Origin: Massilia aquatica
GTDB taxonomy: Bacteria; Pseudomonadota; Gammaproteobacteria; Burkholderiales; Burkholderiaceae_D
Assembly (NCBI RefSeq): GCF_011682045.1
Contig: NZ_VVIW01000003.1
Coordinates: 372,001-436,000 of the forward strand
Length of the DNA: 64,000 bases
Direction: 5' to 3'
Both the position numbers and the translations under genes were made by a program. A model generated the notes under the pieces. The model did not search any database. It was given only the letters and a program-made list of their open reading frames with translations, and was not told the origin of the DNA. This document shows positions 8,032-35,158 of this stretch, one piece after another; within the stretch, counting starts at the first letter, position 1, and each line of letters opens with the position of its first letter.

Positions 8032-8947
8032 GCTGCTCTCCTGCCTTGTCGGTGGCGCGGCGTTTCGGCGAGCCGCTGTCCTCGCCTTCGCCGCCCATGG
8101 CGTTGATCCAGCTTTCCAGCTGCGCGAAGCTCGGCTTGATGTTCAGCTGCACCAGGCGGCGCCCGGCATCGATGGCCAGCAGGGCCGGTTTGCCGGCCAC
8201 GTGGGTGACCAGGACGACTTTGACGCATTCCATGTTCGACGCTTCCTGGTTCACCAGCTGCTTCATCATGTTGCTGATCGGGTCGAGTACGCCGTAGCAG
8301 AAGAAAATGCCGAGGAAGGTGCCGACCATCGCGGCGCCCACCTTGGCCGAGATGGCGCCGGCATCGGCGCCCTCGGCCACCGAGTTCATCGCCAGCACGA
8401 TCCCGAGCACCGCCGCCAGGATGCCGAACCCGGGCATCGCTTCGGCAATCTTGTGCAGCGACTTGGACGGCTGCACCAGCTCTTCGTGAATGGCTTCCAA
8501 TTCCTGCTCCAGTACGCCTTCAAGCTCGTGGGCGTTGATTTTTCCCATCGCCATCAAACGGAAGTTATCGACAATAAACGCCAATAGTTTAGGTTCTTCG
8601 AGCACCAGCGGGTAACGCTGGAACAGGGGGCTCGATGCCGGGTCTTCCACGTGCGCATCGAGTGCTTTCAGGCCGCCCGCGGCGGTTTGCAGCAATTCAT
8701 ACATCAACAACAACAATTGGCGCTGGAACTCGGAACCCTGCTTCTTGCGCGTGACGATCTTGCGCATCTGGGTACTCAGTTCCTTGAGCACGTGGTTGGG
8801 GTTCCCCAACACCAGCGCCCCGGCGCCGCCGCCGGCAATGATCAGGATTTCGACCGGATGCCAGATGGCGTCGAAGGTGCCGCCCATGAGGACAAATCCG
8901 CCGAAGATACAGCCGAGAACAATGGCGATGCCGACTAATGGCTGCAT
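8015..8947 (-). CDS. motA: Flagellar stator protein MotA (LafT-like)
   Basis: MotA is the four-helix stator subunit that pushes on FliG. The 310-residue product starts MQPLVGIAIVLGCIFGGFVLMGG, followed by PVEILIIAGGGAGALV. A large cytoplasmic loop separates these from PGFGILAAVLGIVLAMNSV and AAMVGTFLGIFFCYGVLDPI, which contain the conserved pore-lining prolines. The C-terminal tail overlaps the motB start by 17 bp. The start has AAAGGAATTT upstream. Confidence 0.95.
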   Translation of the reverse strand: MQPLVGIAIVLGCIFGGFVLMGGTFDAIWHPVEILIIAGGGAGALVLGNPNHVLKELSTQMRKIVTRKKQGSEFQRQLLLLMYELLQTAAGGLKALDAHVEDPASSPLFQRYPLVLEEPKLLAFIVDNFRLMAMGKINAHELEGVLEQELEAIHEELVQPSKSLHKIAEAMPGFGILAAVLGIVLAMNSVAEGADAGAISAKVGAAMVGTFLGIFFCYGVLDPISNMMKQLVNQEASNMECVKVVLVTHVAGKPALLAIDAGRRLVQLNIKPSFAQLESWINAMGGEGEDSGSPKRRATDKAGEQRAKAA

Positions 8948-9004: not shown

Positions 9005-9805
9005 TCAGCCTTTAAGAGCTGCTTTCATCTTGGCCAGCGCCGCTTTATTGAGCTGGCAGACGCGCGCGTCCGACAAATCGAGCACGGCGGCCACTTCCTT
9101 GTAGCTCAGTTCGAATTCGTAAATCATCTGGATCACGCGCTGTTCGCGCTCGTCCAGGGACCTCAAGGCCTGTTCCAGGCTGCGCTTGACCATGAACTGC
9201 TCTTCCGGGCCGGGCGCGCTGTGGGCCCGTTCGGCGGCTTCCTGCAGCACTTCGTCAAAGCTCAGCAGCAGTTCGGCGCCATCGTCCAGCTGGTACTGGG
9301 CATAGGCTTCGGGGCTCAGGCCCAGCGAGGCGGCCGCTTCGGTGTCGGTCGGTTCCCGTCCCAGCGAGCGGGTCAGGGCGCGCACCTGGTCGCGCATCTT
9401 GTGGCTGTCCTGGCGCACCGCGCGCGGACGCCAGTCCTGGCGCCGCAGTTCATCGAGGATGGCGCCACGGATGCGCAGCGAGGCAAAGCTGCCGAAACCG
9501 GCGTCGGGCGAGCCGTACCGGCGCAGTGCTTCGAGCAGGCCCATCAGGCCGATCTGTTCCATGTCGTCGCGTCCCATCAGGCCCGAGACCTGGGCGCCCA
9601 GCTGGCGCACGATGCGCTTGACCAGCGGCGCGTAAGCGACCAGCTGGCGCTGCTCTTCGCGGGCGTCGAGCACGGGCGCGTAGTCGGCAACCTGGCCGTA
9701 AGCGCTGCCGTAGTCGTTAGCGTGCTCGTCCCGAACGGGCACGTCCCGGACGGGCATGTAGCTGGCGGCGCTGCCGCTGTCGGTGTAATCGGCGTGATAG
9801 GCCAC
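9005..9805 (-). CDS. fliA: Flagellar sigma-28 factor FliA (LafS-like)
   Basis: FliA directs RNA polymerase to late flagellar promoters. The 266-residue product has region 2 (APLVKRIVRQLGAQ through FGSFASLRIRGAILDELRRQDW, about residues 59-125), region 3 with LGREPTDTEAAASLGLSP, and region 4 with ERVIQMIYEFELSYKEVAAVLDLSDARVCQL-like text (about 218-250). The start is GTG with AGGGG upstream. About 45 extra N-terminal residues containing a VRDVPVRDEH repeat are not usual in FliA. Its own anti-sigma gene, flgM, lies downstream. The likely targets are the flagellin promoters at 28049-33449. Confidence 0.93.
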   Translation of the reverse strand: MAYHADYTDSGSAASYMPVRDVPVRDEHANDYGSAYGQVADYAPVLDAREEQRQLVAYAPLVKRIVRQLGAQVSGLMGRDDMEQIGLMGLLEALRRYGSPDAGFGSFASLRIRGAILDELRRQDWRPRAVRQDSHKMRDQVRALTRSLGREPTDTEAAASLGLSPEAYAQYQLDDGAELLLSFDEVLQEAAERAHSAPGPEEQFMVKRSLEQALRSLDEREQRVIQMIYEFELSYKEVAAVLDLSDARVCQLNKAALAKMKAALKG

Positions 9806-12359: not shown

Positions 12360-13742
12360 TTAATTGGATTTATCGCCGAACAGTGCGTCGAACATGGAGG
12401 TGTTGGACGCCATGCGGCTTTGCAGTGTCTGCAACTGTGTAAATTGCATCAGATAGCGCTTGTAGGCGCTGTCGTACTGCTTGTCGAGCTGGTCCTGGCG
12501 CTTGACCAGGCTGGTCTGCAATTTGGTGTTCTGTTCCAGCCGCTGCTTGAGCTGGCCGTCGGTGCTGCTGCTCCATTCCTTCAGGTAGCCGTCCAGGCTG
12601 CCCGCGATGCCGCTGCTGGCGCCGTTGACGCTGCTGCCGATCAGGGTGTCGAGCCCTTTCGGCGAGACCGCCAGCTGGCTGGTCAGGCGCGTCGCGTTGA
12701 GCGACAGGCTGCCGTCGCGCGTGGCCACGATGCCGTAGGCGGCCAGGCTGTCGGCGCCGTTTGCGCCGCGCAGCATGCTGACCATGCGCGCCTGCAGCAC
12801 GCGCACGCCGCCATCGTTGGCGAATACGCCCGGGTTGGCGCCCTTGGCCGGGTCGCCCGGTGCCACCATGGCGTCGATCACGGTCTTGAGCTTGTTGTAA
12901 TCGTCGACGAATTTCTGCACCTTGGCCACGGTGCCGGCATTGTCGCTGGCCACCGTCAGGGTCACCGGCGCGTCGCCCGGGGCCTGCGCCTTGGTGAAGG
13001 TCATGGTCACGCCGTCGACGTTGGTAAATACGTTCGAGGCCTGGTTGATCGCGGTGCCGCTGCCCTGCGCGCCGAGCCAGACCAGCGCGTCCTGGCCGGT
13101 GACGACCTGGGTCGGCGCGTTCGAGAGCGCGGTTTTCAGGCCGGCATTGCCCACCGCCGCCGTGTTCAGCGAAATATTGCCGGCCGCACCTGTTGCTTTC
13201 GAGGTCAGCATCAGCTGGGTGACGCCGTTGACGGTGACGATCGAGGCCGACACGCGTCCGTTGTTGGTCGGTTCGGCATTGATGGCGGCGGCGATTTCGC
13301 GCGGGGTCAGGGTGGCGTTGCCGTCGCTGTTGGCGCTGGCCAGGTTGATCGAAAAGCCGGGCGCGCCGCCCAGTTCGATGCCCAGGCTGCCGCCGTCGGC
13401 CGCGCTGTCGGCCAGGCCGTTGTACGAGACCTGGTTGGCGGTGGCGAGGCGTTCGACGAAAAAGCTGTAGTTGCCGGCAGTGGCGTTCACGCCGGCGCTG
13501 GCGCTGCCGATCGCGGTGTTGCTGAAGGTCGCGGCCTGGGTCAGCATGGTCTTGCCGGAGGTCAAGGACAGCAGCGAACTCTGGTAGCCCGAAATGGCCG
13601 AGCGCAGCGAGCTCAGGGCGGCGGCGGCGCTGCTGGCCTGCTTGGTCTGGGCGGTCAGGATGCTCTGGCGCGCCGAGGTGTAGTTGGTCGCCAGGCCGGT
13701 TGCGGTGGTAGCCGGATCGTAGGTGTTGCCAATGGTCGCCAT
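12360..13742 (-). CDS. fliD: Flagellar filament cap protein FliD (LafB-like)
   Basis: FliD caps the filament tip and folds incoming flagellin. The 460-residue product has an N-terminal helix rich in Ala/Gln/Ser (SARQSILTAQTKQASSAAAALSSLRSAIS, about residues 23-51), a FliD_N-type NTAIGSASAG segment, a middle VEFTKAQ-like variable region (VTMTFTKAQAPGD) and the C-terminal FliD helix ending LQTLQSRMASNTSMFDALFG. The N-terminus lacks the usual SxGxGSGLD start of polar FliD, consistent with a divergent, lateral-type cap. fliJ lies 96 bp upstream. Confidence 0.9.
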   Translation of the reverse strand: MATIGNTYDPATTATGLATNYTSARQSILTAQTKQASSAAAALSSLRSAISGYQSSLLSLTSGKTMLTQAATFSNTAIGSASAGVNATAGNYSFFVERLATANQVSYNGLADSAADGGSLGIELGGAPGFSINLASANSDGNATLTPREIAAAINAEPTNNGRVSASIVTVNGVTQLMLTSKATGAAGNISLNTAAVGNAGLKTALSNAPTQVVTGQDALVWLGAQGSGTAINQASNVFTNVDGVTMTFTKAQAPGDAPVTLTVASDNAGTVAKVQKFVDDYNKLKTVIDAMVAPGDPAKGANPGVFANDGGVRVLQARMVSMLRGANGADSLAAYGIVATRDGSLSLNATRLTSQLAVSPKGLDTLIGSSVNGASSGIAGSLDGYLKEWSSSTDGQLKQRLEQNTKLQTSLVKRQDQLDKQYDSAYKRYLMQFTQLQTLQSRMASNTSMFDALFGDKSN

Positions 13743-22929: not shown

Positions 22930-24064
22930 CGACGCGAGCGGTGGCGACAAGACCGAAAAGGCCTCGCAGCAAAAGCTGCGCAAGGCCCGTGAAGAAGGGC
23001 AGGTGGTGCGTTCGCGCGACCTGGCCACCGCGATCGGCATCCTGGTCAGCCTGAAAGTGTTTTCCATGATGCTGCCGAGCTACCTGGAGTCCTTCCGCAG
23101 CCTGTTCGCGCTGGTCTTCATTCCGCTCGGGGCCGACGGCGCCATCGAAAACCTGAGCTCGACCATTTTCACCAGTTCCATGTGGCTCTTGATCACCATG
23201 GTGCTGCCGCTCCTGGGCGTGCCGTTCGCGGTGGTGCTCTCGTCCCTGATTCCGGGCGGCTGGGTGATCAGCACCAAGAACATGGCGCCCAAGATGGACC
23301 GCCTCTCGCCCATGAAAAACCTGGGCAACCTGTTTACCGCCAAGCACGGCATCGGCGTGGCGACCTCGGTCGGCAAGGCCGTCGTGCTCGGCTGGGTGCT
23401 GGTGCACGTGAGCCGCTCGGGCATGAACGCCTTTGTCGAATTGCAAAAAATGCCGCTCAGCACAGCGCTGCCGGCCGGCGCCGGGATGATGCTCGACGCC
23501 CTGATGGCGATGTGCATGGTGTTCGTCATGTTCGCCGTGCTCGACGTGCCGGTGCAGGCTTTCCTGTTCGCGCGCAACCAGCGCATGAGCAAGCACGACC
23601 AGAAGGAAGAACACAAGAGCAGCGAAGGCAAGCCCGAAGTGCGCCAGCGCATCCGCCAGTTGCAGCAGCAGATGGCACGGCGCAGCGTGAGCAAGACCGT
23701 GCCCACGGCCGACGTCGTCATTGTCAATCCGGAACACTATGCGGTCGCGCTCAAGTACGAGGCCAGCCGCGCCGAAGCGCCCTTCGTGGTGGCCAAGGGA
23801 GTCGACGAGATGGCCCTGTTCATCCGCCAGATTGCAAAACAGCACAATATCGAGACCCTGGAGCTGCCGCCGCTGGCGCGCGCGATCTACAATACCAGCC
23901 AGGTCCAGCAGCAAATTCCGGCCCAGCTGTACCAGGCCGTGTCGCAGGTGCTCAACTATGTGCTGCAACTGAACGCTTTTCGTGCCGGCCGGCGCACTGC
24001 GCCGCCACGTTTCCCCAACGAGGTGGTCGTGCCATCTCATCTGAGTGAGGTTCCCGCCACATGA
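22922..24064 (+). CDS. flhB: Flagellar export switch protein FlhB
   Basis: FlhB controls the switch of export from rod and hook to filament substrates. The 380-residue product starts with the FlhB cytosolic DKTEKASQQKLRKAREEGQVVRSRDL-type motif, has four membrane helices, and carries the autocleavage site as NPEH at residues 269-272 where NPTH is usual. The Asn-Pro pair needed for cleavage is intact. The C-terminal domain continues HYAVALKYEASRAEAPFVVAKG. It overlaps fliR by 8 bp and flhA by 4 bp. Confidence 0.95.
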   Translation: MADDASGGDKTEKASQQKLRKAREEGQVVRSRDLATAIGILVSLKVFSMMLPSYLESFRSLFALVFIPLGADGAIENLSSTIFTSSMWLLITMVLPLLGVPFAVVLSSLIPGGWVISTKNMAPKMDRLSPMKNLGNLFTAKHGIGVATSVGKAVVLGWVLVHVSRSGMNAFVELQKMPLSTALPAGAGMMLDALMAMCMVFVMFAVLDVPVQAFLFARNQRMSKHDQKEEHKSSEGKPEVRQRIRQLQQQMARRSVSKTVPTADVVIVNPEHYAVALKYEASRAEAPFVVAKGVDEMALFIRQIAKQHNIETLELPPLARAIYNTSQVQQQIPAQLYQAVSQVLNYVLQLNAFRAGRRTAPPRFPNEVVVPSHLSEVPAT

Positions 24065-26148
24065 GTTTTTTGAACAGCCTGCTGACCGAGTTAAAGCGGC
24101 ATAAATTCGCCACCCCGGTGTTCTTGCTGGTCATCTTGTCGATGATCATCCTGCCGCTGCCGCCGGTCTTGCTCGACGTACTGTTTACCTTCAACATCGT
24201 GCTGGCCATGATCGTCATCCTGGTGTCGGTCTCGGCCAAGCGGCCGCTCGACTTCTCGGTGTTCCCGAGCGTGATTCTCGGCACCACCATGCTCAGGCTG
24301 ACCCTGAACGTGGCCTCGACCCGGGTGGTGCTGCTGCACGGCCACACGGGCAGCGACGCGGCCGGTAAAGTGATCGAAGCCTTCGCCAATGTGGTTATCG
24401 GCGGCAATTTCGTGGTCGGCTTCGTGGTCTTCATCATTTTGATGATCATTAACTTCGCGGTGGTGACCAAGGGCGCGGAACGCATTTCCGAAGTGTCGGC
24501 GCGGTTTACCCTGGACGCGCTGCCGGGCAAGCAGATGGCGATCGACGCCGACCTCAATGCCGGCCTGATCAACCAGGAAAAAGCCCAGGTGCGGCGCCGC
24601 GACGTGGCCGCCGAAGCCGACTTCTACGGCGCCATGGACGGCGCCTCGAAGTTCGTGCGCGGCGACGCGGTCGCCAGTATTCTGATTTTGATCATCAACA
24701 TGGTGGGCGGCGTGGCGATTGGCGCGCTGATGCACGACCTGTCCTTCGGCGACGCCTTCCGCCTGTACGCGCTGCTGACCATCGGCGACGGCCTGGTGGC
24801 GCAGATCCCGGCGCTGCTGCTGTCGGCCGCGGCCGCCATTCTGGTGACCCGGATCAGCGATGCGGGCGACTTCGAACAACAGGTCGGCGGGCAGCTGCTG
24901 GCGTCCCCGGCGGTGCTCTACAGCGCCTCGGGCATGATGCTGGTGCTGGCCATGGTGCCGGGCATGCCATGGCTGATGTTCGGTATCTTTGCGGTGGTGC
25001 TCGGCTACGTGGGCTGGCGCCTGGCGCGCATGGTCAAGGCGCCCGACCAGGCCGGGGTGGCGGCAATCGAAGCGGCCCTGCGCGACGAGCGCGCCCCCGA
25101 GCTCGAATGGCAGCACCTGCCGGCGGTGCAGGCGCTGACGGTGGCGGTCGGCTACAAACTGGTCGGACTGGTCGATGCCGCCCAGGGCGAACCGCTGACC
25201 AAGCGCATCAAGGGCGTGCGCCAGAGCCTGTCGGAAGCGATGGGCTTGCTGCTGCCGCCAATCAATGTGCGCGACGACCTGTCGCTGCGCCCGACCCAGT
25301 ACTCGATCATGCTCAGCGGCACCGTGGTGGCCGAGGCCGAAGTGGTGCCGGAATGCCTGATGGCGATTGCCTCGCCCTCGGTGTACGGCCAGCTCGACGG
25401 CATTCCGGGGATCGAACCGGCCTACGGCATGGCGATTACCTGGATCGCCCCGAGCGAGAAGGCCCATGCGCTCGGGCTCGGCTACCAGGTGGTCGAGGTG
25501 CCGAGCGCGATCGCCACCCATTGCTCCAAGGTGGTGCGCGATTACCTGCCGGACCTGTTCCGCCATGAAGATGTGGCGGCGATCCTGGAACGGATGACGG
25601 CGCTCTCGCCCAAGCTGGCCTCGGCGCTGGACAAGGCGATGACGCACACCCAGCTGCTGCGCGTGTTCCGCGTGTTGCTGGCCGAAAATGTCTCGCTCAA
25701 GGATATCGTGGTGATCGGCACCACCTTGCTCGACAGTTCGGAAACCACCAAGGACCCGATCCTGCTGGCGGCCGAAGTGCGCTGCGCGCTGCGGCGCCAG
25801 ATCGTGACGGCCTTGTTCGGCAAGAAGAAGGAAATGCCGGCGTTCAATCTGTCGGGCGAGCTGGAGAATATGTTGCTGGGGTCGCTGAACCAGGCGCGCC
25901 AGGGCGGCAAGGTGGCGCTGGATAATTTCCCGATCGATCCGCAGTTGCTCTCGCAATTACAGTTGAACATGCCGGTGGCGCGCGAGCAGATGAAGCAGCA
26001 GCAAAGTGCGCCGCTGCTGCTGGTGCTGCCGCAGATCAGGCCGCTGCTGGCCAGGTACGCGCGCCTGTTCGCACCGGGGCTGCACGTGCTTTCTTACAAC
26101 GAGATTCCCGAGAACCGCGATGTGAGCATCGTCGGCACCGTGGGATAA
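24061..26148 (+). CDS. flhA: Flagellar export protein FlhA
   Basis: FlhA is the nine-subunit export platform and ion-conducting part of the type III export gate. The 695-residue product has about eight membrane helices. Conserved stretches include SAKRPLDFSVFPSVILGTTMLRLTLNVASTRVVL-type, the cytoplasmic FHIPEP loop (AERISEVSARFTLDALPGKQMAIDADLNAG in pattern, about residues 140-170) and EADFYGAMDGASKFVRGDA. The C-terminal cytosolic half is complete. It ends the plus-strand export operon and is convergent with the next gene, 6 bp apart. Confidence 0.96.
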   Translation: MSFLNSLLTELKRHKFATPVFLLVILSMIILPLPPVLLDVLFTFNIVLAMIVILVSVSAKRPLDFSVFPSVILGTTMLRLTLNVASTRVVLLHGHTGSDAAGKVIEAFANVVIGGNFVVGFVVFIILMIINFAVVTKGAERISEVSARFTLDALPGKQMAIDADLNAGLINQEKAQVRRRDVAAEADFYGAMDGASKFVRGDAVASILILIINMVGGVAIGALMHDLSFGDAFRLYALLTIGDGLVAQIPALLLSAAAAILVTRISDAGDFEQQVGGQLLASPAVLYSASGMMLVLAMVPGMPWLMFGIFAVVLGYVGWRLARMVKAPDQAGVAAIEAALRDERAPELEWQHLPAVQALTVAVGYKLVGLVDAAQGEPLTKRIKGVRQSLSEAMGLLLPPINVRDDLSLRPTQYSIMLSGTVVAEAEVVPECLMAIASPSVYGQLDGIPGIEPAYGMAITWIAPSEKAHALGLGYQVVEVPSAIATHCSKVVRDYLPDLFRHEDVAAILERMTALSPKLASALDKAMTHTQLLRVFRVLLAENVSLKDIVVIGTTLLDSSETTKDPILLAAEVRCALRRQIVTALFGKKKEMPAFNLSGELENMLLGSLNQARQGGKVALDNFPIDPQLLSQLQLNMPVAREQMKQQQSAPLLLVLPQIRPLLARYARLFAPGLHVLSYNEIPENRDVSIVGTVG

Positions 26149-26154
26149 GCCGCG

Positions 26155-27057
26155 CTAGGGCTCGCCATACGGCATCATCCCCGGCAACGGCCTTTCGGTA
26201 TACCGCACCGTGGTCGCCGCTTCCGTCCTGGTGGTCTTGGCCAGCAGCAGCGCCACTTCGGCCATGGCCCGGAACAGGGACGGGGGCAGGGCGGCGCTGA
26301 CCTGGGACGAATACTGCTGCAAGGGTTTGCCCGGCCAGATGCCGTGCCTGACGCTGGCGCGCGCCAGGCGCAAACCGGCCGTTTCGATCGCCTGCTTGAG
26401 CGCCGGCAAGGAATGGCGCAGCAGCGCCACCGCGCGCGGATGCTCGGCCGCCAGTTCCATCATCACCCCATCGAGCAATTCCAGCTGCACCGTGGCATGG
26501 CTGCCGTCGGACAGCACCACGTCCAGCCGCAGCGCCGCCTTGGCGCGCTGGCGCCGGCTGGGCGGCGGATCGGGCAGCCCGGTCAGCAGGCGCAGCGCCA
26601 GTTGCTGGCCGCCCGCGCCCGGCAGCACGAAACGCCACGCTTCCGGATGCCACAACAAGGTCGCTTGCTGCTGCACCGTGCTGGCCTGCATGGCTTGCTG
26701 CACGCCCGACATCAACAGATTGCCCGGCATGAACTGGGCGCGTCCCTGCTCCTGCAAGGTGGCCAGCTGGGCCGCGTAGGTGCGCACCATGCCGCGCCAG
26801 GCGCTGGCCAGGGCGGCGCCGTCGAGCACCGGCCAGGCCAGCTGGCGCGCCATGAATACCTGGTCGCTGCGCATGGAGGCGCTTTCGCTCAGGTTGGCGG
26901 GCAGGCCGCCGCCTGAGGCGGGCGAGGGCGTCACCGTCTGCGCCTCCGGCAGCGGCAGGGCCGCCACGGCCACGGCCGAGGCCGGCGCCGGCAACAGCGA
27001 CAGCGGTGCCAGCGGGGCAATCGGCGCGCCGAGCGGCTGCGAAGGAATGGTAGACAT
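26155..27057 (-). CDS. Second FliK-like protein of the flagellar locus
   Basis: The 300-residue product has an Ala/Pro/Leu-rich N-terminal third. The C-terminal half has the layout of the FliK export-switch domain: LRLDVVLSDGSHATVQLELLDGVMMELAAEHPRAVALLRHSLPALKQAIETAGLRLARASV in pattern (about residues 177-237). Here L-R-x-S-L-x-x-L-x-x-x-I-x-x-A-G-L is the FliK-type helix. The canonical fliK is at 10276-11646, so the role here is uncertain; it could be a secreted or export-control partner for the flagellins next door. The start may also be the GTG three codons earlier. Confidence 0.55.
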   Translation of the reverse strand: MSTIPSQPLGAPIAPLAPLSLLPAPASAVAVAALPLPEAQTVTPSPASGGGLPANLSESASMRSDQVFMARQLAWPVLDGAALASAWRGMVRTYAAQLATLQEQGRAQFMPGNLLMSGVQQAMQASTVQQQATLLWHPEAWRFVLPGAGGQQLALRLLTGLPDPPPSRRQRAKAALRLDVVLSDGSHATVQLELLDGVMMELAAEHPRAVALLRHSLPALKQAIETAGLRLARASVRHGIWPGKPLQQYSSQVSAALPPSLFRAMAEVALLLAKTTRTEAATTVRYTERPLPGMMPYGEP

Positions 27058-27079
27058 GGCGTTCACGCAGGTTCAGGAT

Positions 27080-27112
27080 AAAAAAAGAGCCAGCCGGTGG
27101 GCCGGCTGGCTC
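27080..27112 (-). terminator. Terminator of flagellin gene 1
   Basis: A perfect 11-bp stem (27087-27097 with 27102-27112, GAGCCAGCCGG) with a 4-base loop is followed on the minus strand by a run of T. It ends the 27153-28013 flagellin transcript. Confidence 0.9.
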
Positions 27113-27152
27113 GGTCGGTGCCGGCGCGGCGCGCCGCTGGCCCAGCCGGTGA

Positions 27153-28013
27153 TTATTGCAGCAGCGACATGACCATCGAGGACATGCTGTTGCTCTGTTT
27201 TAGCATGGCGGTGCCGGCTTGCAGCAGCATCTGGCTGGTGGTCATTTTCGAGCTTTCGCTGGCGAAGTCGACGTCCATGATGCGGCCGGTGGCGGCCTTG
27301 CTGTTGGTGCTGATGTTCGACAGGTTGTTGTAGACGTGTTCGAGGCGGTTGGCCGAGGCGCCCAGGGCCGAACGCACGGTGCCGATCGAGGCGATTGCGG
27401 TCGAGAGCTTGTCGATCGAGGTCGAGGCGGTGCCGGCGGCGGTCAGTTCGGTGCCGGTGACGGCCACGGCGGCGTAATTGGCGGTGGTGGCGAGCACGTC
27501 GGTGCCCAGGGTGGTCATGCTGGCCGACATGTCGACGACCATTTTTTCGCTGGTGCTCGAACCGATCTGGAACGTCATGGACGAGGCGATGGTGCCGCCG
27601 GCGAGCAGCTTGGCGCCGCCGAAGGTGGTGTTGTTCATCACGTTGTACAGTTCGGTGCCGAGGGCGTCGTATTCCGACTGCATCGCGGTCTTGTCGGCCG
27701 CGGTGGAGGAGGCATCGGCCGCTTGCGTGGCCAGGTCCTTCATGCGCACCAGCATGTTGCTCACTTCATCGAGCGCGCCTTCAGCCGTTTGCAGCATCGA
27801 GGTCGAGTTCTGGGTGTTGCGCATGGCCACGGCCATGCCGCTGGTCTGGGCTTTCAGGCGGGTGGCGATCTGCAGGCCGGCGGCGTCGTCCATCGACGAA
27901 TTGATGCGGTAGCCGGTCGACAGGCGGGTCATCGAGGTCGACAGCGAGCCCTGGGTGCGGTTGATCGAATTTTGTGCGGACAGTGCGGCGTTGTTCGTGT
28001 GCAGACTCAACAT
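27153..28013 (-). CDS. Flagellin, copy 1 of 6 (LafA-like)
   Basis: This is a flagellar filament subunit of 286 residues. The N-terminal D0/D1 region has INRTQGSLSTSMTRLSTGYRINS in pattern (about residues 18-40) and AAGLQIATRLKAQTSGM. The C-terminal D1/D0 region has RSALGASANRLEHVYNNLSNI and ends SNSMSSMVMSLLQ. The outer D2/D3 domains are absent; the short middle (about residues 140-215) is the only part that differs notably between copies, here with LGTDVLATTANYAAVAVTG. The start ATG at 28013 follows AGGAGTTTTGACC. The gene has its own promoter, leader and terminator. Confidence 0.95.
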   Translation of the reverse strand: MLSLHTNNAALSAQNSINRTQGSLSTSMTRLSTGYRINSSMDDAAGLQIATRLKAQTSGMAVAMRNTQNSTSMLQTAEGALDEVSNMLVRMKDLATQAADASSTAADKTAMQSEYDALGTELYNVMNNTTFGGAKLLAGGTIASSMTFQIGSSTSEKMVVDMSASMTTLGTDVLATTANYAAVAVTGTELTAAGTASTSIDKLSTAIASIGTVRSALGASANRLEHVYNNLSNISTNSKAATGRIMDVDFASESSKMTTSQMLLQAGTAMLKQSNSMSSMVMSLLQ

Positions 28014-28048
28014 GGTCAAAACTCCTGGGGTAGGGGGAGGGACTTTCG

Positions 28049-28112
28049 GAGCCGCAGTGTCTCGCGCTCTTACCATGACAAGACGACCGTTTTACCGGCC
28101 GCGTTAAGTGCC
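28049..28112 (-). promoter_or_regulatory. Promoter and leader hairpin of flagellin 1
   Basis: On the minus strand GGCACTTAA (28104-28112) is followed 16 bases later by GTCGTCTTG. The leader hairpin lies at 28049-28069 (GAGCGC pairing with GCGGCTC, one bulge). All parts recur in front of the other five flagellin genes. The sequence only loosely resembles the sigma-28 consensus. Confidence 0.6.
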
Positions 28113-28158
28113 ATATGGAAATTAAGCGAACTATTTTCCGAGCATAAATTCCGGGCAT

Positions 28159-28185
28159 AAAAAAAGCCAGCCGGTGAGGGCTGGC
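28159..28185 (-). terminator. Terminator of flagellin gene 2
   Basis: The stem GCCAGCC (28166-28172) pairs with GGCTGGC (28179-28185) and is followed on the minus strand by seven T. It separates copies 1 and 2. Confidence 0.88.
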
Positions 28186-28231
28186 TGGAACGGCGCCCGG
28201 CGCAAGCGGCCGGGCATCCTTGCTGACAGGA

Positions 28232-29086
28232 TTATTGCAGCAGCGACATGACCATCGAGGACATGCTGTTGCTCTGCTTGAGCATGGCGGTGCCGGCTTG
28301 CAGCAGCATCTGGTTGGTGGTCATCTTCGAGCTTTCGCTGGCGAAGTCGACGTCCATGATGCGGCCGGTGGCGGCCTTGCTGTTGGTGCTGATGTTCGAC
28401 AGGTTGTTGTAGACGTGTTCCAGGCGGTTGGCCGAGGCGCCCAGGGCCGAACGCACGGTGCCGATCGAGGCCAGTGCGGTCGAGAGCAGGTCGATGCTGG
28501 CGTTGGCGGTGGCGGTCAGTTCGGTGCCCGGGGTGCCCGGCACGGTGTAGGTGCCGCTGGTGGCGCCGATGGCGGTGTTCAGGGCGGTCATGTCGGTGCC
28601 CAGGTTGACCGTCATTTTTTCGCTGGTGCTCGAACCGATCTGGAACGTCATGGACGAGGCGATGGTGCCGCCGACCAGCAGCTTGGCGCCGCCGAAGGTG
28701 GTGTTGGTCATCACGTTGCTCAGTTCTTTACCGAGCGCGTCGTATTCCGACTGCATGGCGGTCTTGTCGGCCGTGGTCGAGGACGCATCGGCTGCCTGGG
28801 TGGCCAGGTCTTTCATGCGCACCACCATGTTGCTCACTTCGTCGAGCGCGCCTTCGGCCGTTTGCAGCATCGAGGTCGAATTCTGGGTGTTGCGCATCGC
28901 CACGGCCATGCCGCTGGTCTGGGCTTTCAGGCGGGTGGCGATCTGCAGGCCGGCGGCGTCGTCCATCGACGAATTGATGCGGTAGCCGGTCGACAGGCGG
29001 GTCATCGAAGTCGACAGCGAACCTTGGGTGCGGTTGATCGAGTTTTGCGCGGACAGGGCGGCGTTGTTGGTGTGAAGGCTCAGCAT
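28232..29086 (-). CDS. Flagellin, copy 2 of 6 (LafA-like)
   Basis: This is a filament subunit of 284 residues, near-identical to copy 1 over about the first 120 and last 75 residues. The middle differs: VNLGTDMTALNTAIGATSGTYTVPG and a shortened TATANASIDLLSTALASIG stretch shared with copy 3. Copies 2 and 3 therefore form a subgroup (IDLLSTALASIG against IDKLSTAIASIG in copies 1, 4, 5 and 6). The start ATG is preceded by AGGAGTTTGACC. Confidence 0.95.
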   Translation of the reverse strand: MLSLHTNNAALSAQNSINRTQGSLSTSMTRLSTGYRINSSMDDAAGLQIATRLKAQTSGMAVAMRNTQNSTSMLQTAEGALDEVSNMVVRMKDLATQAADASSTTADKTAMQSEYDALGKELSNVMTNTTFGGAKLLVGGTIASSMTFQIGSSTSEKMTVNLGTDMTALNTAIGATSGTYTVPGTPGTELTATANASIDLLSTALASIGTVRSALGASANRLEHVYNNLSNISTNSKAATGRIMDVDFASESSKMTTNQMLLQAGTAMLKQSNSMSSMVMSLLQ

Positions 29087-29123
29087 GGTCAAACTCCTGG
29101 TGTTTAGTGGTGGGTGCTTCTCG

Positions 29124-29190
29124 GAGCCGCGCTGGTTTCGCGCTCTCATGAATACAAGGCGACACTTTGATCCAGATCATTAAGTGCCAC
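29124..29190 (-). promoter_or_regulatory. Promoter and leader hairpin of flagellin 2
   Basis: On the minus strand TGGCACTTAA is followed 16 bases after TTAA by GTCGCCTTGTA (to 29153). The leader hairpin at 29124-29145 pairs GAGCGCG with CGCGGCTC across a 7-base loop, with one bulged base. The promoter core is the same as that of copy 4. Confidence 0.62.
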
Positions 29191-29214
29191 ATGGAAATAA
29201 ATTTTATTTAGGCG

Positions 29215-29244
29215 AAAAAAAAGCCAGCCGGATGATCGGCTGGC
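29215..29244 (-). terminator. Terminator of flagellin gene 3
   Basis: The 8-bp stem GCCAGCCG (29223-29230) pairs with CGGCTGGC (29237-29244) and is followed on the minus strand by eight T. Confidence 0.9.
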
Positions 29245-29280
29245 CTGCGGCGACCCGGCTGGCAGCCGGGATGCTGATGA

Positions 29281-30135
29281 TTATTGCAACAGCGACATGA
29301 CCATCGAGGACATGCTGTTGCTCTGTTTCAGCATGGCGGTGCCGGCTTGCAGCAGCATCTGGCTGGTGGTCATCTTCGAGCTTTCGGCGGCGAAGTCGAC
29401 ATCCATGATGCGGCCGGTGGCGGCCTTGCTGTTGGTGCTGATGTTCGACAGGTTGTTGTAGACGTGTTCGAGGCGGTTGGCCGAGGCGCCCAGGGCCGAG
29501 CGCACGGTGCCGATCGACGCCAGTGCGGTCGAGAGCAGGTCGATGCTGGCGTTGGCGGTGAGGGTCAGTTCGGTGCCCGTGGCGCCTGGGGCGGTGTAGG
29601 TGGCGGTGGTGTCGTCGATGGCGTCGTTCAGGGCGGTCATGTCGGCGTTCAGATTGACCGTCATTTTTTCGCTGGTGCTTGAACCGATCTGGAAGGTCAT
29701 CGGGCCGGCGATGGTGCCGCCGACGAGCAGCTTGGCGCCGCCGAAAGTGGTGTTGTTCATCACATTGCTCAGTTCCTTGCCGAGCGCGTCGTATTCCGAC
29801 TGCATGGCGGTCTTGTCGGCGGCGGTGGAGGACGCATCGGCGGCCTGGGTGGCCAGGTCTTTCATGCGCACCACCATGTTGCTCACTTCGTCGAGCGCGC
29901 CTTCGGCCGTTTGCAGCATCGAGGTCGAATTCTGGGTGTTGCGCATGGCCACGGCCATGCCGCTGGTCTGGGCTTTCAGACGGGTGGCGATCTGCAGGCC
30001 GGCGGCGTCGTCCATCGACGAATTGATGCGGTAGCCGGTCGACAGGCGGGTCATCGAGGTCGACAGCGAACCCTGGGTGCGGTTGATCGAGTTTTGTGCG
30101 GACAGGGCGGCGTTGTTGGTGTGAAGGCTCAGCAT
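29281..30135 (-). CDS. Flagellin, copy 3 of 6 (LafA-like)
   Basis: This is a filament subunit of 284 residues. The conserved ends are as in copy 1. The variable middle reads GPMTFQIG, VNLNADMTALNDAIDDTTATYTAPG and TLTANASIDLLSTAL. It is the only copy with AAESSK rather than ASESSK in the C-terminal DVDF-ESSKM segment. The start ATG at 30135 has CAGGACC upstream, a poorer ribosome-binding site than AGGAG in its sisters, so it may be translated less. Confidence 0.95.
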   Translation of the reverse strand: MLSLHTNNAALSAQNSINRTQGSLSTSMTRLSTGYRINSSMDDAAGLQIATRLKAQTSGMAVAMRNTQNSTSMLQTAEGALDEVSNMVVRMKDLATQAADASSTAADKTAMQSEYDALGKELSNVMNNTTFGGAKLLVGGTIAGPMTFQIGSSTSEKMTVNLNADMTALNDAIDDTTATYTAPGATGTELTLTANASIDLLSTALASIGTVRSALGASANRLEHVYNNLSNISTNSKAATGRIMDVDFAAESSKMTTSQMLLQAGTAMLKQSNSMSSMVMSLLQ

Positions 30136-30171
30136 GGTCAAGGTCCTGGTAACTGTGGTGGGTGGGGAGTC

Positions 30172-30237
30172 GGAGTCGCGCTGTTGTCGCGTCCTTATCC
30201 ATGCAAGGCGACACCTCGATCCGGACCATTAAGTGCC
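30172..30237 (-). promoter_or_regulatory. Promoter and leader hairpin of flagellin 3
   Basis: On the minus strand GGCACTTAA is followed 16 bases later by GTCGCCTTG. The leader hairpin at 30172-30194 keeps the CGCG/CGCG core, while its outer pairs change to GGA with TCC. The pairing is thus kept although the bases differ from the other copies. The upstream GGAAAT block of the sister genes is altered to GGCAAA. Confidence 0.55.
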
Positions 30238-30282
30238 TTACGGCAAACCTTGAGCATTGTCAAACCCGTGGCGGGCACGACG

Positions 30283-30312
30283 AAAAAAAAGCCAGCCGGG
30301 TGGACGGCTGGC
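30283..30312 (-). terminator. Terminator of flagellin gene 4
   Basis: The stem GCCAGCCG (30291-30298) pairs with CGGCTGGC (30305-30312) and is followed on the minus strand by eight T. Confidence 0.9.
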
Positions 30313-30350
30313 CTTTCGGGGACCCGGCTTGCAGCCGGGCATGCTGCTGA

Positions 30351-31211
30351 TTACTGCAGCAGCGACATGACCATCGAGGACATGCTGTTGCTCTGCTTGA
30401 GCATGGCGGTGCCGGCTTGCAGCAGCATCTGGTTGGTGGTCATCTTCGAGCTTTCGCTGGCGAAGTCGACGTCCATGATGCGGCCGGTGGCGGCCTTGCT
30501 GTTGGTGCTGATGTTCGACAGGTTGTTGTAGACGTGTTCCAGGCGGTTGGCCGAGGCGCCCAGCGACGAACGCACGGTGCCGATCGAGGCGATCGCGGTC
30601 GAGAGCTTGTCGATCGTGGTCGAGGCGGTGCCGGCGGCGGTCAGTTCGGTGCCGACCGTGTTCGGGGCGGCGTAGTTGGCGGTGGTGGCGGTCACGTCGG
30701 TGACCAGGGTGCCCATGCTGGTCGACATATCGACCGTCATTTTTTCGCTGGTGCTCGAACCGATCTGGAACGTCATGGCCGAGGCGATGGTGCCGCCGAC
30801 GAGCAGCTTGGCGCCGCCGAAGGACGTATTGGTCAGAACATTGTTCAGCTCGGTACCGAGTGCGTCGTATTCGGACTGCATGGCGGTTTTGTCGGCGGCG
30901 GTCGAGGAGGCATCGGCTGCTTGCGTGGCCAGATCTTTCATGCGTACCAGCATGTTGCTCACTTCGTCGAGCGCGCCTTCAGCGGTTTGCAGCATCGAGG
31001 TCGAGTTCTGGGTGTTGCGCATGGCAACGGCCATGCCGCTGGTCTGGGCTTTCAGGCGGGTCGCGATCTGCAGGCCGGCGGCGTCGTCCATCGACGAATT
31101 GATGCGGTAGCCGGTCGACAGGCGGGTCATCGAGGTCGACAGCGAACCTTGTGTGCGGTTGATCGAATTCTGTGCGGACAGGGCGGCGTTGTTGGTGTGA
31201 AGGCTCAGCAT
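30351..31211 (-). CDS. Flagellin, copy 4 of 6 (LafA-like)
   Basis: This is a filament subunit of 286 residues. It belongs with copy 5: both have VDMSTSMGTLVTDVTATTANYAAPNT in pattern in the middle and SFGGAKLLVGG instead of TFGGAKLL. Termini are as in the other copies. The start ATG has AGGAGTTTGACC upstream, and the stop is TAA after MSLLQ. Confidence 0.95.
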   Translation of the reverse strand: MLSLHTNNAALSAQNSINRTQGSLSTSMTRLSTGYRINSSMDDAAGLQIATRLKAQTSGMAVAMRNTQNSTSMLQTAEGALDEVSNMLVRMKDLATQAADASSTAADKTAMQSEYDALGTELNNVLTNTSFGGAKLLVGGTIASAMTFQIGSSTSEKMTVDMSTSMGTLVTDVTATTANYAAPNTVGTELTAAGTASTTIDKLSTAIASIGTVRSSLGASANRLEHVYNNLSNISTNSKAATGRIMDVDFASESSKMTTNQMLLQAGTAMLKQSNSMSSMVMSLLQ

Positions 31212-31248
31212 GGTCAAACTCCTGGGTGTTGGGGGTGGAAACTTTTCG

Positions 31249-31313
31249 GAACCGCGCTGGTTTCGCGCTCTCACCACTACAAGGCGACACTTTGATCCAG
31301 ATCATTAAGTGCC
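31249..31313 (-). promoter_or_regulatory. Promoter and leader hairpin of flagellin 4
   Basis: On the minus strand TGGCACTTAA is followed 16 bases later by GTCGCCTTGTA (to 31278). The leader hairpin at 31249-31270 pairs GAGCGCG with CGCGGTTC, with a G-U wobble at the base and one bulge. Confidence 0.62.
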
Positions 31314-31339
31314 ACATGGAAATATATTAGGTGTAGGCG

Positions 31340-31370
31340 AAAAAAAAAGCCAGCCGGGTAGACGGCTGGC
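31340..31370 (-). terminator. Terminator of flagellin gene 5
   Basis: The stem GCCAGCCG (31349-31356) pairs with CGGCTGGC (31363-31370) and is followed on the minus strand by nine T. Confidence 0.9.
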
Positions 31371-31406
31371 CTTGTAGGACCCGGCTGGCGGCCGGGATGC
31401 TGGTGA

Positions 31407-32264
31407 TTATTGCAACAGCGACATGACCATCGAGGACATGCTATTGCTCTGTTTCAGCATGGCGGTACCGGCTTGCAGCAGCATCTGGTTGGTGGTCATT
31501 TTCGAGCTTTCGCTGGCGAAGTCGACGTCCATGATGCGGCCGGTGGCGGCCTTGCTGTTGGTGCTGATATTCGACAGGTTGTTGTAGACGTGTTCCAGGC
31601 GGTTGGCCGAGGCGCCCAGCGACGAACGGACCGCGCCGATCGACGCGATCGCGGTCGACAGCTTGTCGATGGTGGCCGATGCGCCGCCGCCGGTCAGTTC
31701 GGTGCCGAGCGTGTTCGGGGCCGCGTAGTTGGCGGTGGTGGCGGTCACGTCGGTGACCAGGGTGCCCATGCTGGTCGACATATCGACCGTCATTTTTTCG
31801 CTGGTGCTCGAACCGATCTGGAACGTCATGGACGAGGCGATGGTGCCGCCGACGAGCAGCTTGGCGCCGCCGAAGGAGGTGTTGTTGAGCACGTTGTTCA
31901 TTTCGGTGCCGAGGGCGTCGTATTCCGACTGCATGGCGGTCTTGTCGGCGCCGGTCGAGGAGGCATCGGCCGCCTGGGTGGCCAGGTCCTTCATGCGTAC
32001 CAGCATGTTGCTTACTTCATCGAGCGCGCCTTCAGCCGTTTGCAGCATCGAGGTCGAGTTCTGGGTGTTGCGCATGGCAACGGCCATGCCGCTGGTCTGG
32101 GCTTTCAGGCGGGTGGCGATTTGCAGGCCGGCGGCATCGTCCATCGATGAATTGATGCGGTAGCCGGTCGACAGGCGGGTCATCGAGGTCGACAGCGAAC
32201 CCTGGGTGCGGTTGATCGAATTCTGTGCGGACAGAGCGGCGTTGTTGGTGTGAAGGCTCAGCAT
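31407..32264 (-). CDS. Flagellin, copy 5 of 6 (LafA-like)
   Basis: This is a filament subunit of 285 residues, closest to copy 4. It differs in the middle at GTEMNNVLNNTSFGG and in the short GGGASATIDKLSTAI stretch, one residue shorter than in copy 4. N- and C-terminal D0/D1 regions are unchanged. The ribosome-binding site is AGGAGTTTGACC. Confidence 0.95.
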   Translation of the reverse strand: MLSLHTNNAALSAQNSINRTQGSLSTSMTRLSTGYRINSSMDDAAGLQIATRLKAQTSGMAVAMRNTQNSTSMLQTAEGALDEVSNMLVRMKDLATQAADASSTGADKTAMQSEYDALGTEMNNVLNNTSFGGAKLLVGGTIASSMTFQIGSSTSEKMTVDMSTSMGTLVTDVTATTANYAAPNTLGTELTGGGASATIDKLSTAIASIGAVRSSLGASANRLEHVYNNLSNISTNSKAATGRIMDVDFASESSKMTTNQMLLQAGTAMLKQSNSMSSMVMSLLQ

Positions 32265-32299
32265 GGTCAAACTCCTGGGTGTTTAGTTTGTGGTTGTCG

Positions 32300-32362
32300 G
32301 AGTCGCTGGTTTCGCGCTCTCATCAATACAAGGCGACACTTTGATTCATATCATTAAATGCC
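32300..32362 (-). promoter_or_regulatory. Promoter and leader hairpin of flagellin 5
   Basis: On the minus strand GGCATTTAA (one change from the sister GGCACTTAA) is followed 16 bases later by GTCGCCTTGTA. The leader hairpin at 32300-32319 pairs GAGCGC with GCGACTC, one bulge. Confidence 0.58.
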
Positions 32363-32418
32363 TTGTGGAAATATTTTTTATGATTGACAAACCGATCACG
32401 GCACGGCGCGTACGGACG

Positions 32419-32446
32419 AAAAAAAACCAGCCGGGTGGACGGCTGG
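32419..32446 (-). terminator. Terminator of flagellin gene 6
   Basis: The stem CCAGCCG (32427-32433) pairs with CGGCTGG (32440-32446) and is followed on the minus strand by eight T. Confidence 0.88.
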
Positions 32447-32492
32447 CTTTCGCAGGACCCGGCTTGCGGCCGGGTTCAGTACTGATTGCAGT

Positions 32493-33353
32493 TTACTGCA
32501 GCAGCGACATGACCATCGAGGACATGCTGTTGCTCTGCTTGAGCATGGCGGTGCCGGCTTGCAGCAGCATCTGGCTGGTGGTCATTTTCGAGCTTTCGCT
32601 GGCGAAGTCGACGTCCATGATGCGGCCGGTGGCGGCCTTGCTGTTGGTGCTGATGTTCGACAAGTTGTTATAGACGTGTTCCAGGCGGTTGGCCGAGGCG
32701 CCCAGGGCCGAACGCACGGTGCCGATCGACGCGATCGCGGTCGAGAGCTTGTCGATCGAGGTCGAGGCGGTGCCGACGCCGGTCAGTTCGGTGCCGCCCG
32801 CAGGCACGGCGACGTAGTTGGCGGTGGTGGCGAGGACGTCGGCATTCAGGGTGGTCATGCTGGCCGACATGTCGACGGTCATTTTTTCGCTGGTGCTCGA
32901 ACCGATCTGGAACGTCATGGACGCGGCGATGGTGCCGCCGGTCAGCAGCTTGGCGCCGCCGAAGGTGGTGTTGTTCATCACGTTGTACAGTTCGGTACCC
33001 AGGGCATCGTATTCCGACTGCATGGCGGTCTTGTCGGCGCCGGTCGAGGAAGCATCGGCCGCTTGCGTGGCCAGGTCCTTCATGCGCACCAGCATGTTGC
33101 TTACTTCGTCGAGCGCGCCTTCAGCGGTTTGCAGCATCGAGGTCGAGTTCTGGGTGTTGCGCATGGCAACGGCCATGCCGCTGGTCTGGGCTTTCAGGCG
33201 GGTGGCGATCTGCAGGCCGGCGGCGTCGTCCATCGACGAATTGATGCGGTAGCCGGTCGACAGGCGGGTCATCGAGGTCGACAGCGAACCCTGGGTGCGG
33301 TTGATTGAATTTTGTGCGGACAGGGCAGCGTTGTTAGTGTGAAGGCTCAGCAT
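32493..33353 (-). CDS. Flagellin, copy 6 of 6 (LafA-like)
   Basis: This is a filament subunit of 286 residues, closest to copy 1 (TELYNVMNNTTFGGAKLL and DVLATTANY in the middle) but with AASMTFQIG and VPAGGTELTGVG. It is the outermost copy, first in the direction of transcription. The region just before the ATG has drifted slightly (GGAGTTCGATC). Its own promoter and leader lie upstream. Confidence 0.95.
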   Translation of the reverse strand: MLSLHTNNAALSAQNSINRTQGSLSTSMTRLSTGYRINSSMDDAAGLQIATRLKAQTSGMAVAMRNTQNSTSMLQTAEGALDEVSNMLVRMKDLATQAADASSTGADKTAMQSEYDALGTELYNVMNNTTFGGAKLLTGGTIAASMTFQIGSSTSEKMTVDMSASMTTLNADVLATTANYVAVPAGGTELTGVGTASTSIDKLSTAIASIGTVRSALGASANRLEHVYNNLSNISTNSKAATGRIMDVDFASESSKMTTSQMLLQAGTAMLKQSNSMSSMVMSLLQ

Positions 33354-33386
33354 GATCGAACTCCAGTGTAGGGGGTGGGAACGTCG

Positions 33387-33449
33387 GAGTCGCGTGCTTC
33401 GCGCTCTCCCAAGTACAAGACGACTGTTTCGCCAAAGTCGTTAAGTGCC
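33387..33449 (-). promoter_or_regulatory. Promoter and leader hairpin of flagellin 6
   Basis: On the minus strand CGGCACTTAA is followed 16 bases later by GTCGTCTTGTA (to 33414). The leader hairpin at 33387-33406 pairs GAGCGCG with CGCGACTC across a 5-base loop, with one bulged A. Confidence 0.6.
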
Positions 33450-34033
33450 GTACGGAAATAAATTGGATTATTTTTGTGTGGCCAAAAAAAATAATCGCAA
33501 AATACATTATTTTCGTTTTTAATCAATCACTTAGCCATTGCAGGCTACGCTCAAGGGCCGATAAATCCGCGCTGCCGGGCACGCGCAAGATGGTTGTTTT
33601 TTCATCAGCCGGGACCCACCATGCACCGCACCTGCCCCGATTAGCCGTTTTACTTGCCAGTCTGCCATGCACGATCGCGTGTGCCATCGCCCAGCCGCTT
33701 CCGCCCATGCCCAAGGCCGTCGCGGCCTGGCACGCATGACTTCCATATATGGATGGCGAGCGGGACCATGTCGGCTTGGGAGGGCGGGGCGGTCTCCTTG
33801 CCCGACTGCGAAACGGTAGCGCAGGCAAGCTTCAAGGCACGCCCGGCGCAGCCGACGATGCGCCGGTCCCGGGAAGCGCAGGCGGGCATTGCCTGACGCT
33901 GCCGCCGCCGCAGTGAAGGCCCGCTTCGACGCCGGTACGCCGTGTCTTTTTCCCCATCCAGGGCGGCCTCATGTACGATCTCGCTGGAGCGCCCACAGCG
34001 CCCCGCCCGATCAAGCTCATCCCCACCGAACAC
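33450..34033. other. Intergenic stretch without a supported gene
   Basis: The first 90 bases are AT-rich and contain runs of A. The rest is GC-rich and open in several frames, but none has a ribosome-binding site or recognisable product. It separates the flagellar locus from the acyltransferase gene. I see no repeat or RNA here. Confidence 0.4.
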
Positions 34034-35158
34034 ATGACCCAAAAAAACGACCCGATCCGTGCCAGCGGCCTCGACACCTTGCGCGCTGCCGCCATCATCC
34101 TTGTCTTGATGTCGCATTATTGCGGTTTTGTCAGCGGGGCAGCGACGTTCGGCGAGCTGGGGAAGGTCGGCTGGGCCGGCGTGGACCTGTTTTTTGTGCT
34201 CAGCGGCTATCTGATCGGGAACCAGATCCTGTCCGCGCTGGCGCGCAAGGAAGATTTTTCCCTGAAGACCTTCTTCGCCAAGCGCCTGCTGCGCACCTTG
34301 CCGAACTATTACGTGGTGCTGGCCGTGTATTTCCTGTTGCCGGATTTGCTGGGCGGCTCCAGCACCGCGCCGCTCTGGCGCTTTCTGACCTTCACGCAAA
34401 ATAGTGGACTGGGCTACGGCCAGACCTTCACGCACTCGTGGTCGCTGTGTATCGAAGAACAATTTTATCTGGCGCTGCCGTTGGTGGTGCTGGCGCTGCG
34501 GCGCTTGCCGCGTCCTTTGACGCTGGCCTGGTGCGTCATTGTTGCTGCCATCGCCGGCGGCATGGCCGCGCGCGCCAGCGGCTTTCTGCTGCACGAGTAC
34601 GATTCGTTTTCGGAGCAACTGTATTACGCGACCCTGTGCCGCTTCGATGCGCTGCTGCCGGGCGTGGCGATTGCCTTGCTGCGCAATTTCCACGGCGCGC
34701 TGTACCAGCGCATCCTGCGGCACGGCAATCTGCTGCTGGCGGCGGGACTGGCCGCGGTCACTGCCACGTTATATGGCGTGCAGCATGACTTGCCCGGTCC
34801 GATGCTGGCCACCACCTTCGGCTTTTCGCTGGTCGCGATGAGCTATGCGCTGCTGGTGCTGGCCGCGCTCAGCCCGGATTCGCTGCTGGGCCGCCTGCGG
34901 ATCCCGGGTGCGACCTCGCTGGCGCTGTGGTCGTACGCGATTTACCTGGTCCACAAGCCGCTGTTCATGGTGGCCGCGCCGCACCTGCGCCGCCTGAAGA
35001 TCGACACCGGCGCGCCGCTGACCGTGCTGCTGATGTTCGCCGCCGGGATCGGCGCCGGCTGGCTGCTGTTCCGCGTGGTCGAGACGCCGTTCATGCAGCT
35101 GCGGGCGAGATGGTATCCATCGCAACACGCCAGAGCGGGGCTGGCGCCGGCGTTGTAA
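34034..35158 (+). CDS. Membrane acyltransferase, acyltransferase-3 (OafA/YrhL) family
   Basis: The 374-residue product is a polytopic membrane protein of about ten helices. It starts GLDTLRAAAIILVLMSHY (the family's catalytic His is in MSHY) and has GWAGVDLFFVLSGYLIG, FAKRLLRTLPNYYVVL and HSWSLCIEEQFYL, all hallmarks of acyltransferase-3. Such proteins O-acylate sugars or other cell-surface molecules; the substrate here is unknown. I chose the ATG of MTQKNDPIRASGLD because the alignment to family members starts there. It reads away from the flagellins. Confidence 0.85.
   Translation: MTQKNDPIRASGLDTLRAAAIILVLMSHYCGFVSGAATFGELGKVGWAGVDLFFVLSGYLIGNQILSALARKEDFSLKTFFAKRLLRTLPNYYVVLAVYFLLPDLLGGSSTAPLWRFLTFTQNSGLGYGQTFTHSWSLCIEEQFYLALPLVVLALRRLPRPLTLAWCVIVAAIAGGMAARASGFLLHEYDSFSEQLYYATLCRFDALLPGVAIALLRNFHGALYQRILRHGNLLLAAGLAAVTATLYGVQHDLPGPMLATTFGFSLVAMSYALLVLAALSPDSLLGRLRIPGATSLALWSYAIYLVHKPLFMVAAPHLRRLKIDTGAPLTVLLMFAAGIGAGWLLFRVVETPFMQLRARWYPSQHARAGLAPAL

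Follow-up and report, generated by a model that had tools for sequence, protein, structure and literature searches.

Why does one flagellar gene cluster of Massilia aquatica carry six flagellin genes in a row, and how have these copies come to share nearly identical ends around variable middles? The question was raised by a stretch of 64,000 nucleotides (contig NZ_VVIW01000003.1, positions 372,001 to 436,000; hereafter the window), in which the six genes, named f1 to f6, occupied positions 27153-33353. Comparison with related genomes revealed three layers of sequence in the array, each following a different rule: upstream regions followed the position of the copy in the array (the "slot"), middles followed a sequence class, and ends followed the genome, although imperfectly. 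Gene conversion between the copies would be the simplest account of these three layers.

Three layers of sequence in the flagellin array

All six open reading frames were intact and lay on the minus strand, so that the array is read from right to left. The first slot was occupied by f6 (32493-33353, middle class A, 286 amino acids), followed by the internal copies f5 (31407-32264, class C, 285 amino acids), f4 (30351-31211, class C, 286 amino acids) and f3 (29281-30135, class B, 284 amino acids), the penultimate copy f2 (28232-29086, class B, 284 amino acids) and the last copy f1 (27153-28013, class A, 286 amino acids). A profile search of the genome placed Flagellin_N (PF00669) over its cut-off at all six places. 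The scan for both flagellin domains covered f2, entered with one extra codon, and f6, and in both proteins PF00669 and Flagellin_C (PF00700) exceeded their gathering scores, as in bacterial flagellins. No difference was found among the six copies over residues 1-80, whereas 42 of the 47 variable amino acid columns fell at 121-220, with 29 concentrated at 161-200. The preliminary description of this DNA, which had reported six tandem flagellins of 284-286 residues with near-identical ends and variable middles, was thus borne out. Its pairing of the copies (2 with 3, 4 with 5, and 1 with 6) stood best in the middles, where amino acid identity over columns 131-205 was 0.82 for f2/f3, 0.93 for f4/f5 and 0.85 for f1/f6, with f1/f4 also at 0.84, but matched the ends only in part. 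For f2 and f4, which belonged to different middle classes, 209 consecutive nucleotides were identical, ending at the second-last coding base; f5 resembled f6 more than f4 over the N-terminal end, and f4 was closest to f2 at the C-terminal end.

To follow these segments across species, 27 full copies from seven genomes were compared, with 500 label shuffles as the reference. Codons 1-85 and 223-286 were taken as the ends, and 125 bases as the upstream segment. The 27-row comparisons omitted atriv_2 and rubra_5, C-terminal fragments lying at contig ends. N-terminal fragments on separate contigs (L121 and L130) entered only a 29-row upstream tree, and L115-L117 and L120 were dropped as duplicates, their contigs being equal in length to those of L040, L042, L039 and L041. 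The upstream tree required two changes between first, internal and last slots, which is the minimum and was reached by none of the 500 shuffles; the minimum of two was also found in the 29-row tree. No sorting of the upstream regions by genome was seen (19 changes against a shuffled mean of 18.3, with 424 of 500 shuffles as low). The ends, on the other hand, needed 10 changes of genome (shuffled mean 18.3, none of 500 as low), and were hardly sorted by class (8 changes, 35 of 500 as low) or by slot (9 changes, 47 of 500 as low). The middles were sorted by class with two changes, again the minimum and again reached by no shuffle.

The approximately unbiased (AU) test was applied to nine groupings, of which six were rejected, one was kept and the remaining two were groupings that the tree itself contained. 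For the ends, a class B clade was rejected (p 1.8e-7). For the middle, the last-slot copies were rejected as a group (3.9e-6), and so were the six copies of the window. For the upstream segment, the test rejected class A (4e-6) as well as class B (6e-44), and the six copies of the window too (3.7e-7); the last-slot copies already formed a group with support 97/95. The same incongruence could be seen in single genes: the last copy of M. rubra combined a last-slot promoter like that of f1 with a class B middle (f1 is class A), and the third copy from that end combined the promoter type of f3 with a class A middle (f3 is class B). Mean synonymous divergence of the N-terminal ends was 0.16-0.17 within genomes and 0.24-0.25 between them.

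The incongruence of the upstream, middle and end trees supported the repeated duplication and recombination proposed in the preliminary description; the assignment to a lateral-type secondary system and the binding of promoters to slots go beyond that description. Since upstream regions, promoter and leader alike, went with slot, middles with class and ends with genome, recurrent gene conversion was suggested, with the promoters staying fixed. Such conversion, anchored in the near-identical ends, would move middles between slots and at the same time keep the residues of the filament core alike. The FliA of the cluster would transcribe all six copies, and their products, exchangeable in the core, may co-assemble in one lateral filament whose outer surface would mix the three middle classes; the additional copies could supply dosage as well. 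Taken as a whole, this reading of the locus, with separate transcription units, slot-bound promoters, moving middles, gene conversion and LafA-like secondary flagellins, was considered probable.

Several observations weighed against it. Genome still left a trace in the middles (15 changes, a count that 10 of 500 shuffles matched or undercut), and the ends clustered imperfectly by genome, with 10 changes where 6 would be the minimum. In the ends tree, 4 of 24 inner branches were starred, the group formed by the four copies of one genome (G013) was unstarred (81/80), and a single class A clade was not rejected by the AU test (p 0.069); the first-slot group of the upstream tree was likewise unstarred (85/85). 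The contrast in synonymous divergence was smaller at the C-terminal end, with means of 0.122 and 0.162 within genomes and 0.166 and 0.176 between them. By synonymous divergence, the nearest copy included one of the same genome for 17 of 27 copies at the N-terminal end and 14 of 27 at the C-terminal end, and one of the same class for 12 at either end. The class names were given post hoc from a motif inside the middle, although the result persisted with columns 136-215 only. A structural model of f1, built with 30 sequences, was of modest confidence (mean predicted local distance difference test score, pLDDT, 79.7; predicted template modelling score, pTM, 0.58). Finally, the best NCBIfam match of f2, LafA_2 (NF038071), scored 342.6 bits and did not reach the curated cut-off of 365, and the proteins are therefore named LafA-like only.

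Probable transcription units, copy number and slots

A sigma28-like motif, TTAA-N16-GTCGYCTTG, was found at a fixed place upstream of each of the six copies, on the minus strand. The promoter-like site of f1 (28077-28112; TTAA-N16-GTCGTCTTG) was of the last-slot type and that of f6 (33414-33449) of the first-slot type. The internal sites carried a dyad of the form TGAT-N4-ATCA in the spacer: TGATCTGGATCA in f2 (29153-29188) and f4 (31278-31313), TGATATGAATCA in f5 (32327-32362), and a degenerate form, TGGTCCGGATCG, in f3 (30202-30237). Of 136 regions upstream of LafA-like flagellins in numerous genera, 126 contained the motif, all but one of them (125) with a spacer of 16; this count omits frames whose start the pattern failed to recognise, and at least one of the ten unmatched regions (L057 10138) was a false start inside a gene. 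A matrix built from the promoter sites matched, at the score used, only the six flagellin sites in the window. One extra site was located just outside it (C33:360001-375000), upstream of an FlgK-like gene that we take from its translation to be flgK, and the stretches scanned on C26 and C7, one on each, gave no match. The sites had the look of late flagellar promoters, presumably read by the FliA of the cluster. In the search for sigma70-type promoters, none was found on the coding strand and one on the opposite strand, and a sigma54 reading of TGGCAC was set aside by eye.

Terminator-like hairpins on the minus strand were listed by the hairpin scan after four of the six copies: f1 (27087-27112), f2 (28165-28186), f3 (29221-29246) and f5 (31346-31373). 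Those after f4 (30283-30315) and f6 (32418-32450), unlisted by the scan, were the same repeat (family D11) and came from the repeat search. With a conserved promoter before it and a hairpin after it, each copy therefore looked like a separate transcription unit. The claim that every copy has its own promoter, leader and terminator was in this way supported at all six places by sequence features, and no sign of silent copies was apparent, all six reading frames and promoter-like sites being intact.

The leaders were thinned by similarity from 121 to 81. A consensus fold of these 81, in a gappy alignment, gave no structure, and the folding energies were slightly below those of mononucleotide shuffles (mean z -1.1). 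In a search for stems at the 5' end, 78 of the 81 leaders scored above the mean of their own 50 shuffles (mean 16.5 versus 11.6), so that a stem close to the transcript's 5' end is likely. Known RNA families in leaders and terminators gave two matches, neither of which reached its gathering score; the best was Burkholderia anti-hemB RNA in the terminator region of f2 (28157-28234; E 0.0023, 28 bits versus 49.5).

Copy number, which the preliminary description had proposed to compare, ranged from 1 to 6 among the sampled genomes that had such flagellins. A LafA-like match (E <= 1e-70, at most 8 candidates scored per genome) was found in 68 genomes among the 294 sampled from the family, host included: six matches in one genome (the host, and the highest count of the 294), five in one, four in 7, three in 18, two in 10 and one in 31. 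The counted matches were sometimes not tandem, some were pieces (G211), and broken contigs lowered some counts (G008 and G015). In five Massilia or Telluria genomes, single LafA-like genes were seen at two separate loci with no array (L043/L046, L044/L063, L045/L053, L049/L052 and L050/L061). This series of copy numbers, together with the invariance of residues 1-80 and the likeness of the six promoters, fits an explanation by dosage alone, in which equal copies were amplified for a fast supply of subunits to many lateral flagella and the middles drift neutrally outside the core. However, class A and B middles were recognisable across several species while the ends followed the genome, and the presence of the dyad differed between slots. 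Dosage alone was regarded as possible but somewhat unlikely.

The dyad itself, its inner bases varying, started the 16-base spacer in 9 of 15 internal promoters; the first and last promoters, 12 in all, lacked it, as did 102 other upstream regions. It was present in the penultimate copy of six of six genomes; the seventh, M. atriviolacea, had no readable penultimate promoter. We assume that TGAT-N4-ATCA resembles FNR/CRP sites. The host genome contained 16 HTH_Crp_2 matches, of which 14 were over the cut-off, so a regulator for the dyad is possible. The dyad suggests that the slots are regulated differently, as a lead rather than a result.

The lead belongs to a second alternative, slot-specific regulation, according to which the first, internal and last promoters answer different signals and thereby change the composition of the filament with conditions or along its length, a CRP/FNR-type regulator acting at the dyad of the internal slots. 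It agrees with the minimal number of slot changes in both upstream trees and with the distribution of the dyad, and the available text on Shewanella describes two flagellins used sequentially from separate promoters (PMC6299084). Against this, the dyad stretch was inherited with the internal promoter type, for which shared descent or conversion could account, and the dyad was absent from the other species examined; the regulator is a candidate only, proposed from a likeness that we presume. Regulation by slot was therefore rated as rather unlikely. Slot-specific regulation could also be joined to gene conversion, with fixed and differently regulated promoters (first, internal with a CRP/FNR-type dyad, and last) serving surface "cassettes" of a few old classes that conversion, anchored in the homogenised ends, moves between slots. 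This combination is speculative and was considered unlikely; if true, it would let a lineage change the surface of its filament per condition without altering the core. In any case, copy number in the family runs naturally from one to six, with promoters bound to their slots and middles that appear exchangeable, and dosage, mixing and slot-specific use should therefore be separable by experiment.

The variable middle in the predicted filament

The best solved-structure matches of the f1 model were the filament flagellins of Pseudomonas aeruginosa and Shewanella, with template modelling (TM) scores of about 0.65, so that model and fold search both pointed to a flagellin of the filament core. 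In the model, the variable residues 161-200 corresponded to a helix (163-180), a loop (181-194) and the beginning of the final helix, and the variable stretch sat between two long helical arms. The part between the long arms of a flagellin forms the outer part of domain D1 in the filament. The variable residues would accordingly be predicted to face outward there.

The variation outside the two arms, with the core fixed, and the movement of middles between slots would also be expected if conversion yielded new variants of the surface and phages or protists selected among them, that is, antigenic or phage-escape diversification. Expression of a single copy would then be favoured, yet all six copies had promoter-like sites, and no switch was seen: the repeat search, which took in positions 26500-34500 and repeats of at least 30 nucleotides, listed no inverted ones. 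This explanation was judged improbable. An assembly artefact, named as a possible refutation in the preliminary description, or a chance repeat, either of which the 99-contig assembly and the breaks of some relatives' arrays at contig ends (L039 and L041) might bring to mind, is hardly credible because the array lay inside a contig of 525,650 bases, no two of the six copies were identical, and four-copy arrays occurred in relatives assembled in two contigs (G010) and one contig (G013). The conversion of middles between slot-bound promoters was the preferred reading.

The flagellar cluster and known lateral systems

The closest relatives of the host genome were M. rubra, M. mucilaginosa, M. frigida and M. 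atriviolacea. The cluster in the window held FliD (the filament cap; 12360-13742, minus strand), FliK, FliL, an ATPase of the FliI type, a sigma factor of the FliA/WhiG family (9005-9805, minus strand), which would be the likely reader of the six promoters, and MotA (8015-8947) and MotB (7075-8031), together spanning 7075-8947 on the minus strand. Beside the array, FlhA was matched at 24061-26148 on the plus strand; it scored 755.9 bits against the FlhA cut-off of 772.1 and exceeded its own SctV score of 547.6. Between flhA and the array, a frame of 303 amino acids (26155-27066) had no Pfam match at 1e-5 and no NCBIfam match at 1e-3. From the translations we take other frames of the cluster to be fliE, fliF, fliG, fliM, fliN, fliP, fliQ, fliR, flhB and flg genes; no Pfam family matched the FliM-like frame at 1e-5.

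Four FHIPEP proteins were found in the host genome. A separate FlhA on C7 was over the FlhA cut-off, and two larger flagellins lay on C26 (frames of 485 and 504 amino acids); the window cluster was therefore taken as a secondary flagellar system, and it carried its own FliA, MotA and MotB, as is expected of such a system. On this basis, the six genes are predicted to encode lateral-type (LafA-like) flagellins of the secondary system. A third FHIPEP protein (C4:115773-117737) was nearer FlhA (765.7 bits, cut-off 772.1) and is possibly a third flagellar-type export gene, and the fourth (C88:47707-49674) was over the SctV cut-off: a type III secretion system is present in the host genome. The other system's larger flagellin was likewise repeated, with the two frames on C26 (L127) and frames of 488 amino acids in a row in relatives, four in L131 (G010) and three in L132 (G013).

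Published systems, as described in the portions of the reports available, resemble the array in part. In the Flag-2 systems of Enterobacterales, LafA is multi-copy in 156 of 592 strains, reaching five copies in a Yersinia, and the secondary-system flagellin is likewise accompanied by its own FliA, MotA and MotB counterparts (PMC6993521). The Flag-2 block lafWZABCDEFSTU puts lafA next to lafB (fliD) (PMC6993521), whereas the present array, six copies in a different bacterial order, lay beyond flhA, with one frame between, and not beside fliD. A LafK-type sigma54 activator is a feature of Flag-2, but no Sigma54_activat domain was matched within the window (C33:372001-436000), the sole match on that contig being at 275183. 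Aeromonas hydrophila AH-1 has two LafA copies rather than six; LafA1 and LafA2, of about 30 kDa, were both detected by mass spectrometry in purified lateral flagellin (PMC4691044). A betaproteobacterial LafA is reported in Burkholderia dolosa, in a genome also bearing a polar FliC, with homologues also mentioned for the Massilia relatives Duganella and Janthinobacterium; the excerpt speaks of a lafA gene rather than an array (PMC5773237). Bdellovibrio builds one filament from six similar flagellins (PMC2791853), and FlaA and FlaB of Shewanella are individually regulated flagellins of one filament (PMC6299084); conversion of middles between fixed promoters was not described in the text available for either (PMC2791853, PMC6299084).

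Among the matches listed in the literature search, which covered titles and the openings of abstracts, mostly outside the subscription literature, the pattern of slot, class and genome was not found, and no paper joined flagellin, Massilia and lateral flagella. As LafA in several copies has been reported before, the array is not in itself a new kind of system, although by the published excerpts it has one copy more than the largest LafA report found. The new part, which the segment trees support, would be the combination of promoters bound to their slots, middles bound to their classes and ends that follow, imperfectly, the genome.

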